The translations under genes were made by a program, and so were the position numbers. This document shows, in pieces, positions 25,428-41,130 of a stretch of 64,000 nt of DNA (the first letter of the stretch is position 1; each line of letters begins with the position of its first letter). This stretch comes from Pedococcus aerophilus (GTDB lineage Bacteria; Actinomycetota; Actinomycetes; Actinomycetales; Dermatophilaceae). The stretch covers positions 222,261 through 286,260 of the forward strand of contig NZ_BAAARN010000004.1 of assembly GCF_039532215.1 (NCBI RefSeq), read 5' to 3'. Below the pieces are notes generated by a model, which had not been told where the DNA came from, searched no databases, and saw only the letters and a list, made by a program, of their open reading frames with translations.

Positions 25428-25467
25428 CGAAGGGGCCCGCTCACCTCACGGTGAGCGGGCCCCTTCG
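25428..25467 (+). terminator. Strong terminator hairpin after rpsT
   Basis: A perfect 18-bp stem (25428-25445 with 25450-25467) closes a 4-nt loop TCAC. There is no U tract, as is common in actinobacteria. It lies 18 nt after the rpsT stop. Confidence 0.9.
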
Positions 25468-36393: not shown

Positions 36394-37692
36394 GTGACCG
36401 AGTCCGCCCCGCCCGCACCTGCCGCGCCCGCTCCCGGCGCCCTCGACGGCGCCGACCGCTCGGCCGCCCCGGCGATCGACCCGATGGTCGACCCGGTGGG
36501 CCCCCCGGTCCGCTCGACCCACACCAACCTCGCGCTCCTCGCGCTCGCCATCGGTGGCTTCGCGATCGGCACGACCGAGTTCGTGACCATGGGCCTGCTG
36601 CCCGAGGTCGCCGCCGGTGTCGGCATCTCGATCCCGACCGCGGGGCACGTCGTCTCGGCGTACGCCGCCGGTGTCGTCGTCGGTGCCCCCGTGCTGGCCA
36701 CCCTCGGCTCGAAGATGCCCCGCAAGACCCTGCTGCTGTGGCTCATGGGTGGCTTCGCCGTCGCGAACGGACTGTCCGCGCTGGCCTCCAGCTACGGGCT
36801 GCTCATGGCCGCGCGCTTCCTGTCGGGCCTGCCGCACGGCGCGTACTTCGGCGTCGGTGCCTTGGTGGCGGCCTCCTTGGTGCCGGCCCACCGCCGCACC
36901 TGGGCCGTGTCGATGATGATCACCGGGCTGACCGTCGCCAACATCGTGGGGGTGCCGCTCACGACGCGCCTCGGTCAGTCCTACGGCTGGCAGTGGCCGT
37001 ATGCAGCCGTGGCCGTCCTCGCCGCCATCACCGTGCTCGCCGTGTGGCGCTGGGTGCCGTTCTGCCCGCCCGACGGTGGCGCGACCATGCGGTCGGAGTT
37101 CTCGGCCCTGCGTCGTCCGCAGGTGTGGTTCGCGCTCGCGATCGGCACGGTCGGCTTCGGCGGGATGTTCGCGACGTTCTCCTACATCTCGCCGACGATG
37201 ACCGAGCTCGGCGGGTTCAGCAAGGGCGCGATCCCGCTCATCCTCGCCGTCTACGGCGTGGGCATGACCGCCGGCGCCATGGCCTCGGGGCCGGTCTCCA
37301 GGCTCGGCCTCCTGCGCGGGATCGTCGTCGTCATGGGGACGATCGCCGTGATGCTGGCGCTCTTCGGCCCCGCCGTCGCGGCGTCGAAGTGGCTGGCGGT
37401 CGTGGCCGTCTTCATGCTCGGGCTGCTGCCCAGCGCACTGGTGCCCATGCTCCAGACCCGGCTGATGGACGTCGCCCACGAGGGGCAGTCGCTCGCCGCC
37501 GCCCTCAACCACTCCACCCTCAACCTCGCCAACGCCCTCGGCGCCTGGCTCGGCTCGATCGTGCTCTCCGCGGGCCTGGGGTACGAGTGGCCCTCGCGGC
37601 TCGGCGCCGTGCTCGCGGTCCTCGGTGTCGGCATCGCGCTGGCGTCCGGCATCACCGGCCGCCGTTCCGCCCAGGTCGCTCGAACACGCTGA
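36394..37692 (+). CDS. MFS exporter, DHA1 (AraJ/CmlA-like)
   Basis: A 432-aa 12-helix transporter. FAIGTTEFVTMGLLPEVA in helix 1, SAYAAGVVVGAPVLATL, the loop-2/3 KMPRKTLLLW, ARFLSGLPHGAYFGVGA in helix 4 and GLTVANIVGVPLTTRLG in helix 5 (motif C) match drug or sugar-efflux AraJ/CmlA/PbuE-like proteins. GTG 36394 is the start; the N-terminal 40 residues are Pro/Ala-rich. Its last 41 nt overlap the 3' end of the convergent ArsR-type regulator gene. Confidence 0.88.
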   Translation: MTESAPPAPAAPAPGALDGADRSAAPAIDPMVDPVGPPVRSTHTNLALLALAIGGFAIGTTEFVTMGLLPEVAAGVGISIPTAGHVVSAYAAGVVVGAPVLATLGSKMPRKTLLLWLMGGFAVANGLSALASSYGLLMAARFLSGLPHGAYFGVGALVAASLVPAHRRTWAVSMMITGLTVANIVGVPLTTRLGQSYGWQWPYAAVAVLAAITVLAVWRWVPFCPPDGGATMRSEFSALRRPQVWFALAIGTVGFGGMFATFSYISPTMTELGGFSKGAIPLILAVYGVGMTAGAMASGPVSRLGLLRGIVVVMGTIAVMLALFGPAVAASKWLAVVAVFMLGLLPSALVPMLQTRLMDVAHEGQSLAAALNHSTLNLANALGAWLGSIVLSAGLGYEWPSRLGAVLAVLGVGIALASGITGRRSAQVARTR

Positions 37693-38197
37693 CCAGGACG
37701 CCGTGGGTCGGTTCGCCGACCGGTGCCTCGTCGAGGCCCTCGATGACGCGCTCGAGGTGTGCCGACAGGGCCTGCGCCTGGGCGCGCGTCAGCCGCACCC
37801 GACGCAGGTGCATGAGCGGTTCGCCGACCGCGGTGGCCAGCTCCTGGGCCACGGCCCCGAACAGCGCGGCCGTGTGGTCAGCGCCCTGCGGCCCGCTCGG
37901 GGTGCGCAGTCGTCGAGAGGTCCGGACCCAGTAGCGCTCCGTGCCACCGCGCACCGTGCGCGTCCGGTCCGCCCGGGCGAGACCGGCCCGTTCCAGGACC
38001 ATGAGGTGGTGGGCGATGTTGCCCTTGTTGGAGGACAGCCGCTTCGCCAGCTGGCTCACGGTGGCGCCCTCCTGCCCGATCGTGAACAGGATCCGGTTGC
38101 GGAGGGGATGGGCCAGGGCCTTGAGCTGGGCGGGTTCGGTCGCCTCGACCACATCCGCCTCGACCACGTCCGCGTCGCCCACGTCGTCAGGGGTCAC
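37652..38197 (-). CDS. ArsR-family winged-helix regulator
   Basis: A 181-aa protein with an ArsR-like helix-turn-helix (about residues 25-90): LKALAHPLRNRILFTIGQ, then VSQLAKRLSSNKGNIAHHLMVLERAGL. There is no metal-binding cysteine motif (CxC), so it is of the HTH_20/non-metal type. The C-terminal half (FGAVAQELATAVGE) is helical. GTG 38197 is reached by -35 TTGACA (38232-38227), a 17-nt spacer and -10 GACGCT (38209-38204), overlapped by a palindrome that is probably its own operator. It is divergent from the S41-like gene and convergent with the MFS exporter. Confidence 0.85.
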   Translation of the reverse strand: MTPDDVGDADVVEADVVEATEPAQLKALAHPLRNRILFTIGQEGATVSQLAKRLSSNKGNIAHHLMVLERAGLARADRTRTVRGGTERYWVRTSRRLRTPSGPQGADHTAALFGAVAQELATAVGEPLMHLRRVRLTRAQAQALSAHLERVIEGLDEAPVGEPTHGVLVSVFERPGRNGGR

Positions 38198-38202
38198 CCG
38201 TC

Positions 38203-38247
38203 AAGCGTCAAGAAAGTTTGACGCTTTGTCAACGGGGGCCGCACCCT
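38203..38247. promoter_or_regulatory. ArsR operator with two overlapping divergent promoters
   Basis: AAGCGTCAA (38203-38211), 6 nt, TTGACGCTT (38218-38226) is a perfect 9-bp inverted repeat. Plus strand: TTGACG (38218-38223), 18 nt, CACCCT (38242-38247), 7 nt, ATG 38255. Minus strand: TTGACA (38232-38227), 17 nt, GACGCT (38209-38204), 6 nt, GTG 38197. Binding would block both promoters. Confidence 0.75.
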
Positions 38248-38254
38248 CGGACGC

Positions 38255-39166
38255 ATGACGACCGACACCCTCACGGCCACCTGGACCACCCCGATCCTCG
38301 AGCACTGCGCGGAGCTCGTCGACGCCCGATACGTCCTCCCGGAGGTCGCGCCGCGCGTCGCGGAGGCTCTGCGTGCCGCCGCCGCGGCGGGCAGGTATGC
38401 CGCGTGCACCGGTCCCGAGGACCTCGCCGTCGCCGTGACCGCGCACCTGCACGAGCTCACCGCAGACCTGCACCTGCGCCTGCTCTTCCACGCCGACGGT
38501 GCCATGGGGGAGCAGGACCCGGCCGCGCTGGAGGCCTACTGGCGTGAGGAGGCCCGCCGCACCGCCGGGGGCGTGCAGCGGGTCGAGCGGACGGCCTCCG
38601 GGGTCGGCGTCGTCGTGCTCGGCCCGGTGCTCTGCCACCCGGCCATGGGCGGCGACGCCGTCGCCGCGGCGATGTCGCTCGTGGCGGACGCCGATGCCCT
38701 CGTCCTGGACGTCCGTGGGTGCCGGGGCGGGAGCCCCGACGGCGTCGTGCTCCTGCTGAGCCACCTGTTCGAGCCCGAGCCGGTGCGCCTGGGCGACGTC
38801 GAGTCCCGCGAGGGCGGCACCCACCAGTACTGGACCCAGTCCGCGCTCGCGGGAAGGCGGTTCGGACCCGACAAGCCGGTGGCCGTGCTCACGTCGGCGG
38901 AGACGTTCTCCGGTGGGGAGGCGGTGGCGTTCGACCTGCAGGACCTGGGGCGGGCCACGGTCGTGGGGGAGCGCACCCGCGGTGGTGCCCACCCCCGGAT
39001 CGGGGTGTCCGTCCACCCGCAGCTGGAGCTCAGCCTTCCGGTGGCCAGGTCGGTCAGCCCCCGCACCGGGGGGAACTGGGAGGGCGCGGGCGTCCTGCCG
39101 GACGTCGAGGTGGCGGCGTCGGACGCCCTCGACACCGCCCTGGCGTTCCTGGCGCCCACCGCCTGA
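38255..39166 (+). CDS. S41-family peptidase-like protein (IRBP/Tsp fold)
   Basis: A 303-aa protein without signal peptide. An N-terminal helical bundle (about 1-90) resembling the IRBP N-domain precedes the S41 core: [15 protein letters not shown] (the oxyanion strand), [21 protein letters not shown] with the candidate nucleophile Ser in FSGGE, and [12 protein letters not shown]. Lack of PDZ and signal peptide points to a cytosolic hydrolase, possibly of peptide antibiotics or signals. It is controlled together with the divergent ArsR regulator. The start ATG 38255 is leaderless-type. Confidence 0.83.
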
Positions 39167-39282
39167 GGGTCGGCGCGCCTGCGGTGCCGCCGCGTGGCGT
39201 CATGGGCAGGTCACGCGCACGGTCCCGCTCGTGGGAGGATGAACCGTTCCCCGCCGTCCCACCCGTGAGGTCGAGTCCACCC

Positions 39283-41130
39283 GTGTCCCCGATGGCCCGC
39301 ACCGCGCTGCAGCCGCACGCAACGCCGCCGGACCTGATCCGGAACTTCAGCATCATCGCCCACATCGACCACGGCAAGTCCACGCTGGCCGACCGCATGC
39401 TCCAGGTCACCGGTGTCGTCGACGGTCGCGCGATGCGCGCGCAGTACCTCGACAAGATGGACATCGAGCGCGAGCGCGGCATCACGATCAAGAGCCAGGC
39501 CGTCCGCATGCCGTGGGAGCTCGACGGCACGACGTACGCGTTGAACATGATCGACACCCCCGGCCACGTCGACTTCACCTACGAGGTGTCCCGGTCGCTC
39601 GCCGCCTGCGAGGGTGCGGTCCTGCTCGTCGATGCAGCGCAGGGGATCGAGGCGCAGACGCTGGCGAACCTCTACCTCGCCATGGAGAACGAGCTCGCGA
39701 TCATCCCGGTGCTCAACAAGATCGACCTGCCGGCGGCTCAGCCGGAGAAGTTCGCCGAGGAGCTCGCCGGACTGATCGGCTGCGAGCCCGAGGACTGCCT
39801 GCGCGTCTCCGGCAAGACCGGCGAGGGCGTGGAGCCGCTGCTCAACCAGATCGTCCGCCAGCTCCCGGCCCCCGTCGGCGACCCCGACGCCCCGGCGCGC
39901 GCGATGATCTTCGACTCGGTCTACGACACCTACCGCGGTGTGGTCACCTACGTCCGGGTCATCGACGGCAACCTCAACCCCCGCGAGAAGATCGCGATGA
40001 TGTCGACCAAGGCGACCCACGAGCTCCTCGAGATCGGCGTCAGCTCACCCGAGCCCGCGCCGGCCAAGGGTCTCGGGGTCGGCGAGGTGGGCTACCTCAT
40101 CACCGGGGTGAAGGACGTGCGGCAGTCCAAGGTCGGTGACACCGTCACCAACGCGGCCAAGCCGGCCAAGGAGGCCCTCGGCGGCTACCGCGACCCCAAG
40201 CCGATGGTGTTCTCGGGGCTCTACCCGATCGACGGCTCCGACTACCCGGACCTGCGTGACGCCCTCGACAAGCTCAAGCTCAACGATGCGGCCCTGGTCT
40301 ACGAGCCCGAGACGTCGGCGGCCCTCGGGTTCGGCTTCCGCATCGGGTTCCTCGGCATGCTGCACCTCGAGATCGTGCGCGAGCGCCTCGAGCGCGAGTT
40401 CGACCTCGACCTCATCTCGACCCTGCCCAACGTCGTCTACGACGTGACGATGGACGACGGCAAGGTCCTCACGGTCACCAACCCGAGCGAGTACCCCTAC
40501 GGCAAGGTCTCCTCGGTCACCGAGCCCGTCGTGCGCGCCACGATCCTCGTGCCGAGCGAGTTCATCGGCGCCGTCATGGAGCTGTGCCAGCAGAAGCGCG
40601 GCAACCTGCGCGGCATGGACTACCTGTCCGAGGAGCGCGTCGAGATGCGCTACACGCTGCCGCTCGCGGAGATCGTCTTCGACTTCTTCGACCAGCTCAA
40701 GTCGCGCACCCGCGGCTACGCCTCGCTCGACTACGAACCCGACGGTGAGCAGGAGGCCGACCTCGTCAAGGTCGACATCCTGCTCCAGGGCGAGACCGTC
40801 GACGCCTTCTCCTCGATCGTCCACAAGGACAAGGCCTACGCGTACGGCGTGATGATGGCCAGCAAGCTCAAGGACCTCATCCCGCGCCAGCAGTTCGAGG
40901 TGCCGATCCAGGCCGCCATCGGCGCGCGGATCATCGCCCGCGAGAACATCCGGGCGATCCGCAAGGACGTCCTGGCCAAGTGCTACGGCGGCGACATCAG
41001 CCGCAAGCGCAAGCTGCTCGAGAAGCAGAAGGCCGGCAAGAAGCGGATGAAGAACATCGGCTCGGTCGAGGTCCCGCCGGAGGCGTTCATCGCAGCGCTG
41101 TCCAACGACGGCGAGAAGGCCAAGAAGTAG
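39283..41130 (+). CDS. lepA: Elongation factor 4 (LepA)
   Basis: A 615-aa translational GTPase. G1 AHIDHGKS, G3 DTPGHVDF, G4 NKID, then LepA-specific C-terminal features ([20 protein letters not shown] and the basic tail [17 protein letters not shown]). It back-translocates or rescues stalled ribosomes under ionic stress and assists initiation. GTG 39283 or ATG 39292 are both possible; GTG 39265 is less likely. A long hairpin follows the stop. hemW, the usual neighbour, lies 4.4 kb downstream. Confidence 0.95.

Follow-up and report, generated by a model that had tools for sequence, protein, structure and literature searches.

A conserved inverted repeat as candidate operator between divergent genes for an ArsR-family regulator and an IRBP-type S41 hydrolase in Pedococcus aerophilus

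The ArsR/S41 gene pair and its neighbours

The window (the whole 64,000-nucleotide stretch of Pedococcus aerophilus DNA analysed here) carries an ArsR-family regulator gene on the minus strand (37652–38197, GTG start, 181 aa) and, divergent from it on the plus strand, the gene of an S41-family hydrolase of the IRBP type (PF11918 plus PF03572; 38255–39166, ATG start, 303 aa). The two start codons are separated by a 57-nt gap (38198–38254) and, as the preliminary description reported, this gap holds a perfect 9-bp inverted repeat. The repeat, AAGCGTCAA-N6-TTGACGCTT (38203–38226, assigned to neither strand), has arms at 38203–38211 and 38218–38226 separated by a 6-nt spacer; it is a candidate operator, kept beside orthologous gene pairs with the consensus AAAGCGTC-N10-GACGCTTT. 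A perfect 9-bp repeat with a spacer of 3–12 nt arose in 41 of 20,000 single-base shuffles of the gap, and the 64-kb window contains 19 such repeats (nested ones tallied separately), so that the mere presence of the repeat is weak evidence. A search for the palindrome with up to three mismatches gave a single site in the window and a single place in the whole 4.02-Mb genome; at this threshold, the genome thus shows no second site that would point to a regulon beyond the pair. Elsewhere in the window there are two long perfect inverted repeats, at 2935–2964 and 25433–25462, with arms of 11 and 13 bp, which are perhaps terminators.

The regulator scores above the curated cut-offs for HTH_20 (36.8 bits, cut-off 27) and HTH_5 (31.7 bits, cut-off 22), and thus belongs to the transcription factors with an ArsR-type winged helix-turn-helix. 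Its top NCBIfam match is the ArsR/SmtB metalloregulator model, although this falls below the cut-off (42.8 versus 55 bits), and the protein has no cysteine-bearing metal box. Indeed, among the 41 ArsR proteins linked to an S41 gene, 37, including the window regulator, have no cysteine and four have one. Since the regulator is without cysteine, classical cysteine-based metal sensing is unlikely; some SmtB relatives have cysteine-free metal sites. Four residues of the predicted recognition region (K58, G59, H63 and H64) are invariant in all 41 linked proteins. The structure model of the regulator, with a pLDDT of 41, was unusable for inspection of a ligand pocket. Near its coding start, the ArsR gene carries three tandem 15-nt repeats (38141–38185), through which an acidic DVVEA-like stretch recurs in the N-terminal tail of the protein; this feature is absent from the nine other ArsR rows compared.

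The S41 protein is a member of peptidase family S41, IRBP type, with a PF03572 core (78.1 bits, cut-off 24) and a PF11918 N-terminal domain (36.1 bits, cut-off 26.6). Its best solved-structure relatives are vertebrate IRBP modules, both by sequence and by fold, the fold comparison being based on a model from three sequences with a mean pLDDT of 77 that is weak around E276. In an alignment of 75 rows, D71 and H73 are found in all 75, S219 in 74 and E276 in 73. By analogy with tricorn and CPAF, H73, S219 and E276 may form a triad, and on this view the S41 protein would be a catalyst. No signal peptide is apparent by eye at the N-terminus, consistent with the cytosolic-looking S41-like hydrolase proposed at the outset, and a Pfam scan found no PDZ domain. 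The protein does not look like an exported carboxyl-terminal processing protease, as it lacks both a PDZ domain (by Pfam) and a signal or lipoprotein peptide (by eye). A role in anti-phage defence was rejected: in a PADLOC scan the S41 protein had no match, and the ArsR proteins had only winged-helix matches (Csa3, CARF and PDC-M05A).

The pair is flanked by an MFS gene (AraJ/Cmx-like, 36421–37692) and by lepA (39292–41130). The preliminary description had suggested that the MFS exporter may be a third member of the set, and this part of it was not borne out. Each of the 11 congeners has the MFS gene, whether it has the pair or not; in the seven pair-less congeners it is followed directly by lepA, and in the four that have the pair the ArsR and S41 genes lie between them. 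Judged from gene order, the pair is a clean insertion or deletion between MFS and lepA. The MFS gene is convergent with the ArsR gene, no copy of the operator lies beside it, and no MFS relative was found outside the genus, either in eight family loci (~15 kb each) or in 57 Streptomyces loci (4–5 kb each). We therefore reject the MFS gene as part of the set and regard it as resident background irrespective of the pair. These observations also bear on the reading in which the regulator is a classical metal-sensing ArsR/SmtB repressor, and the S41 and MFS genes make up a metal or drug resistance set. The identity of the top NCBIfam model, albeit below its cut-off, and the adjoining AraJ/Cmx-like gene speak for this reading, but the scarcity of cysteines in the linked ArsR proteins and the residence of the MFS gene beside lepA, whether or not the pair is there, make it very improbable.

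Distribution of the pair and of its candidate operator

To follow the pair within the bacterial family of the window, 186 genomes were searched, with an S41 gene called at E 1e-20. The S41 gene is present in 12 of these genomes, and an ArsR relative adjoins it in all 12 loci, divergently in 11 and in tandem in one (G016). In a sample of 149 family genomes, the 11 best ArsR places fall in exactly the 11 genomes that bear the S41 gene, and the remaining 18 fall into a second ArsR group. The S41 gene is rare in the phylum sample (three of 396 genomes, own genome counted). In the genus of genome G497, which we infer to be Streptomyces from identities of up to 93% to a gene on a named Streptomyces plasmid, 55 of 392 genomes have an S41 relative, at 57 places, all of which were examined. 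A divergent ArsR gene is present at 26 of the 35 places of the closer Streptomyces S41 clade; the ArsR match is free of stops in 24 of these linked loci, and in the other two (L069 and L088) there is a stop near the end that leaves 177 and 169 aa open. The S41 proteins of the family and of the Streptomyces group are about 35–50% identical.

The genes around the family pair are alike within the genus and among L116–L119, with one weak further match, and five annotated Streptomyces plasmid copies of the pair are surrounded by differing genes. These differing flanks indicate that the pair behaves as a two-gene module. Seven of 22 plasmid records were examined, and the operator was scored in six of these. 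In Embleya (L133), the ArsR protein is 84% identical and the operator, by eye, is the same. A contig search with a single protein returned only one Paenibacillus and one Sphingomonadaceae relative, and by tblastn neither stretch contains an ArsR relative.

The operator was scored as the best match to the 16 positions of the consensus in a region upstream of the S41 gene that does not depend on the annotated start; random windows of equal length score 12 or more in 0.33% of 9303 cases and never reach 14. Conservation of the palindrome follows the presence of the regulator. In the closer Streptomyces clade, the score is at least 12 in all 26 loci with a divergent ArsR gene (lowest 13), but in none of the nine without an intact ArsR gene nearby (highest 10), absence being judged within 3.9–4.9 kb around the S41 gene; one of the nine, L066, has an ArsR fragment. 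The difference between 26 of 26 and 0 of 9 corresponds to a Fisher P value of 1.4e-8, uncorrected for relatedness. When the 13 ArsR-less rows, plasmids included, are marked on a quickly built S41 tree, eight changes of state are needed, and strongly supported branches force at least three of them; L109, which has one in-frame stop, was omitted from the tree and retained in the operator counts. None of the 18 loci of the second S41 clade, which have no ArsR gene nearby, scores 12 or more. L052, the sole S41 place in the phylum sample outside both groups, has no ArsR relative within 3.4 kb, and its best operator score is 9.

In the family of the window, nine of 12 loci score 12 or more, the exceptions being L114 (score 8, tandem), L116 (10) and L120 (11). 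Further loci comprise L089 (13, with a partial ArsR match), L090 (10, no ArsR), L091 (16, divergent) and L106 (15, tandem). Among the six plasmid loci, the operator is present in two, namely both that have an intact ArsR gene. In the plasmid copy L046, where a stop interrupts the ArsR match and the operator scores 11, decay seems to be under way. Position is also kept: the operator begins 52–54 nt before the S41 start in all 26 linked Streptomyces loci and in nine of the 12 family loci. The palindrome is thus conserved beside orthologous pairs, one of the two points on which the preliminary description had staked its reading, with three of the 12 family loci as exceptions.

We also counted the exact motif AAGYGTC-N10-GACGCTT in 70 chosen genomes. 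It occurs at 31 places, of which 29 are at the pair (in 29 of the 39 pair-bearing genomes). The two places away from the pair are in G715, a pair-bearing genome, and in G599, one of 16 genomes with no S41 match. The exact motif was absent from the nine genomes with an ArsR-less S41 gene and from all six pair-less congeners covered, out of seven. If one mismatch is allowed, 48 of the 70 genomes have a match, and the reversed control pattern likewise matches in many; for this reason only the exact sites are informative.

Promoter boxes, arm decay and a proposed switch

The promoter boxes named in the preliminary description have the coordinates and spacings claimed for them, all read by eye. For the regulator, on the minus strand, the −35 box is TTGACA (38232–38227) and the −10 box is GACGCT (38209–38204, within the left operator arm), with a 17-nt spacer and 6 nt from the −10 box to the GTG; by eye, this spacing recurs in relatives. 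The identical −35 hexamer is found by eye in eight of the 12 family loci, and a TTGCGA-like one at that position in most Streptomyces loci. For the S41 gene, on the plus strand, the −35 box is TTGACG (38218–38223, within the right operator arm) and the −10 box is CACCCT (38242–38247), with an 18-nt spacer and 7 nt from the −10 box to the ATG; Streptomyces relatives have TNTACT or TTCACT in place of this −10 box. By these coordinates, the repeat covers the spacer and −10 box of the regulator promoter and the −35 box of the S41 promoter, as had been claimed.

Both −10 hexamers agree by eye with TATAAT at just two of six positions. A sigma-70 consensus scan of 36500–41000 found no promoter-like site, so the −10 boxes must rest on conservation, and it is from the relatives alone that they gain credit. 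The hexamer T-N-T/C-ACT lies 6–8 nt before the S41 start in all 26 linked loci and in six of the nine ArsR-less genome loci, as well as in the plasmid loci L046, L047 and L050, in which the ArsR gene is missing or broken. In four loci with S41 genes of the Streptomyces type (L089, L090, L091 and L106), the S41 start lies further downstream behind a GGAGG- or GGGGG-like ribosome site, and the −10 hexamer is retained. These downstream starts with their ribosome sites support a leaderless reading of the remaining loci, with the hexamer as the −10 box.

Because the arms double as promoter boxes, part of their conservation may be promoter conservation. In a rival reading, the promoter argument, the repeat is no operator, and its arms are −10 and −35 boxes that are complementary by chance and are conserved as promoter boxes. 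The arms were compared in the nine ArsR-less or ArsR-broken loci that keep the hexamer; the comparison was anchored on the hexamer, whose presence is thus given by construction and was counted separately. Per-position agreement with the consensus is 10–40% in the left arm and 40–70% in the right arm; the S41 −10 box, kept while the arms decay, outlives the palindrome. That the right arm, with the S41 −35 box in it, has decayed less than the left speaks for the promoter argument, and loss of the ArsR gene, by making its −10 box dispensable, would be enough to scramble the left arm. Left-arm decay alone is thus no proof of an operator. However, promoter boxes require neither equal arm sequences nor symmetric extra bases (AAAGCGTC/GACGCTTT), the same symmetry is seen in both the family and the Streptomyces group, whose S41 proteins are about 35–50% identical, and the right arm decays too in ArsR-less loci, six of nine of which keep the S41 −10 box. 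It is this partial right-arm decay, together with the symmetry in linked loci, that carries the argument for an operator, and we consider chance complementarity unlikely. In the other three ArsR-less loci (L081, L085 and L086), the −10 hexamer is absent as well as the operator, which implies that operator and promoter decayed together there.

The placement of the repeat also bears on the direction of regulation. ArsR could be an activator, or could repress its own gene only, with S41 expression altered indirectly, and indeed the repeat lies over the core of the regulator promoter, whereas of the S41 promoter it overlaps just the −35 box. Repressor placement over a −35 box is, however, classic, and the persistence of the S41 gene without ArsR nearby, with its −10 box in six of nine loci, fits constitutive derepression better than the loss of an activator. 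We regard activation, or repression of the regulator gene alone, as improbable.

The unit found here is divergent, with a palindrome over both promoters that is kept with the pair, the three family loci excepted, and the comparative evidence argues that the palindrome is very probably the switch by which a repressor controls both itself and the S41 enzyme. The proposal of an operator over two divergent, apparently leaderless promoters thus gains support from conservation, while its extension to the MFS gene fails. An ArsR-family homodimer would bind the single palindrome between the genes and, once bound, would cover its own spacer and −10 box and the S41 −35 box, excluding RNA polymerase from both promoters. 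The repressor would be released by a small molecule (probably the hydrolase's own substrate, or a signal that this substrate is present), upon which the cytosolic IRBP-like hydrolase and the regulator would be made from what would be leaderless mRNAs. The dedication of a repressor and a single operator to one enzyme makes it likely that the releasing molecule is the S41 substrate or its signal. We have considerable confidence, from the comparison of genomes, in this reading, in which the ArsR protein represses its own gene and a single target, that of a cytosolic hydrolase, until a small molecule induces both. To our knowledge, and in the literature searched, no function has been given to bacterial IRBP-type S41 proteins; the inducer of ArsR would thus be a handle on what these enzymes do. 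Repeated absence of the repressor together with operator decay also amounts to an experiment done by nature on the operator and promoter of actinobacterial genes that look leaderless.

Relation to known systems

The regulator resembles the autoregulated local repressors of the ArsR/SmtB type in its HTH_20/HTH_5 winged helix, in the one palindrome over both promoters and in having one site per genome. It differs from them in lacking the cysteine metal box and in its target, a single S41 hydrolase, whereas the usual targets of ArsR/SmtB repressors are an exporter, an ATPase or a reductase. Another parallel is the second ArsR group of the family (33–38% identity, L013–L030), which is divergent to a DLH-like (dienelactone-hydrolase, PF01738) gene at 18 of 18 loci, the assignment being made by Pfam at five of the 18; the copy in the own genome is at 1501–2016 of L030. 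These pairs likewise join one small regulator to one cytosolic hydrolase, but differ in the hydrolase family and, in the seven loci compared, in the upstream sequence. The recurrence of this arrangement suggests that ArsR proteins of this branch tend to regulate one cytosolic hydrolase each, presumably with the substrate as inducer. No paper on the ArsR/DLH pair was found in the open-access literature searched.

Among S41 proteins, the CtpA/CtpB/Tsp proteases (S41A) share the core, but are weaker matches to the window protein, which has no PDZ domain and, by eye, no export signal. These proteases use a Ser-Lys dyad, and the dyad lysine is not evident in the window protein. Vertebrate IRBP (retinol-binding protein 3) modules share the PF11918 N-terminal domain and are the best match by sequence and fold; in contrast to IRBP, the bacterial protein is a single module that retains S219, H73 and E276. 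Redmond and McLysaght (PMC10450429) propose that chordate IRBP derives from a bacterial S41 peptidase and that its active-site serine was lost more than once. Against the four-module IRBP chain, an ArsR-linked member scores 366 bits, a member of the ArsR-less second clade 391 and the window protein 347; the S41 type linked to ArsR thus stands no nearer to IRBP than does the ArsR-less second clade.

In a more speculative reading, the pair would be a ligand-inducible unit for a lipophilic metabolite, whether isoprenoid, apocarotenoid or lipopeptide. The natural inducer of ArsR would then identify the original substrate of those bacterial S41 proteins from which vertebrate IRBP is reported to have arisen. 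The data show no link to retinoids or isoprenoids, and we hold this reading to be a long shot. An actinobacterial regulator that is divergent from its target and depends on isoprenoid pyrophosphates is described for Corynebacterium glutamicum; this regulator, CrtR, is of the MarR type and controls carotenoid genes (PMC5401885). We found no paper on an ArsR/S41 pair in the open-access literature searched, in keeping with the earlier view that S41 is an unusual partner for ArsR. The autoregulated divergent ArsR unit is already known, and it is the S41/IRBP-type partner that is unusual.
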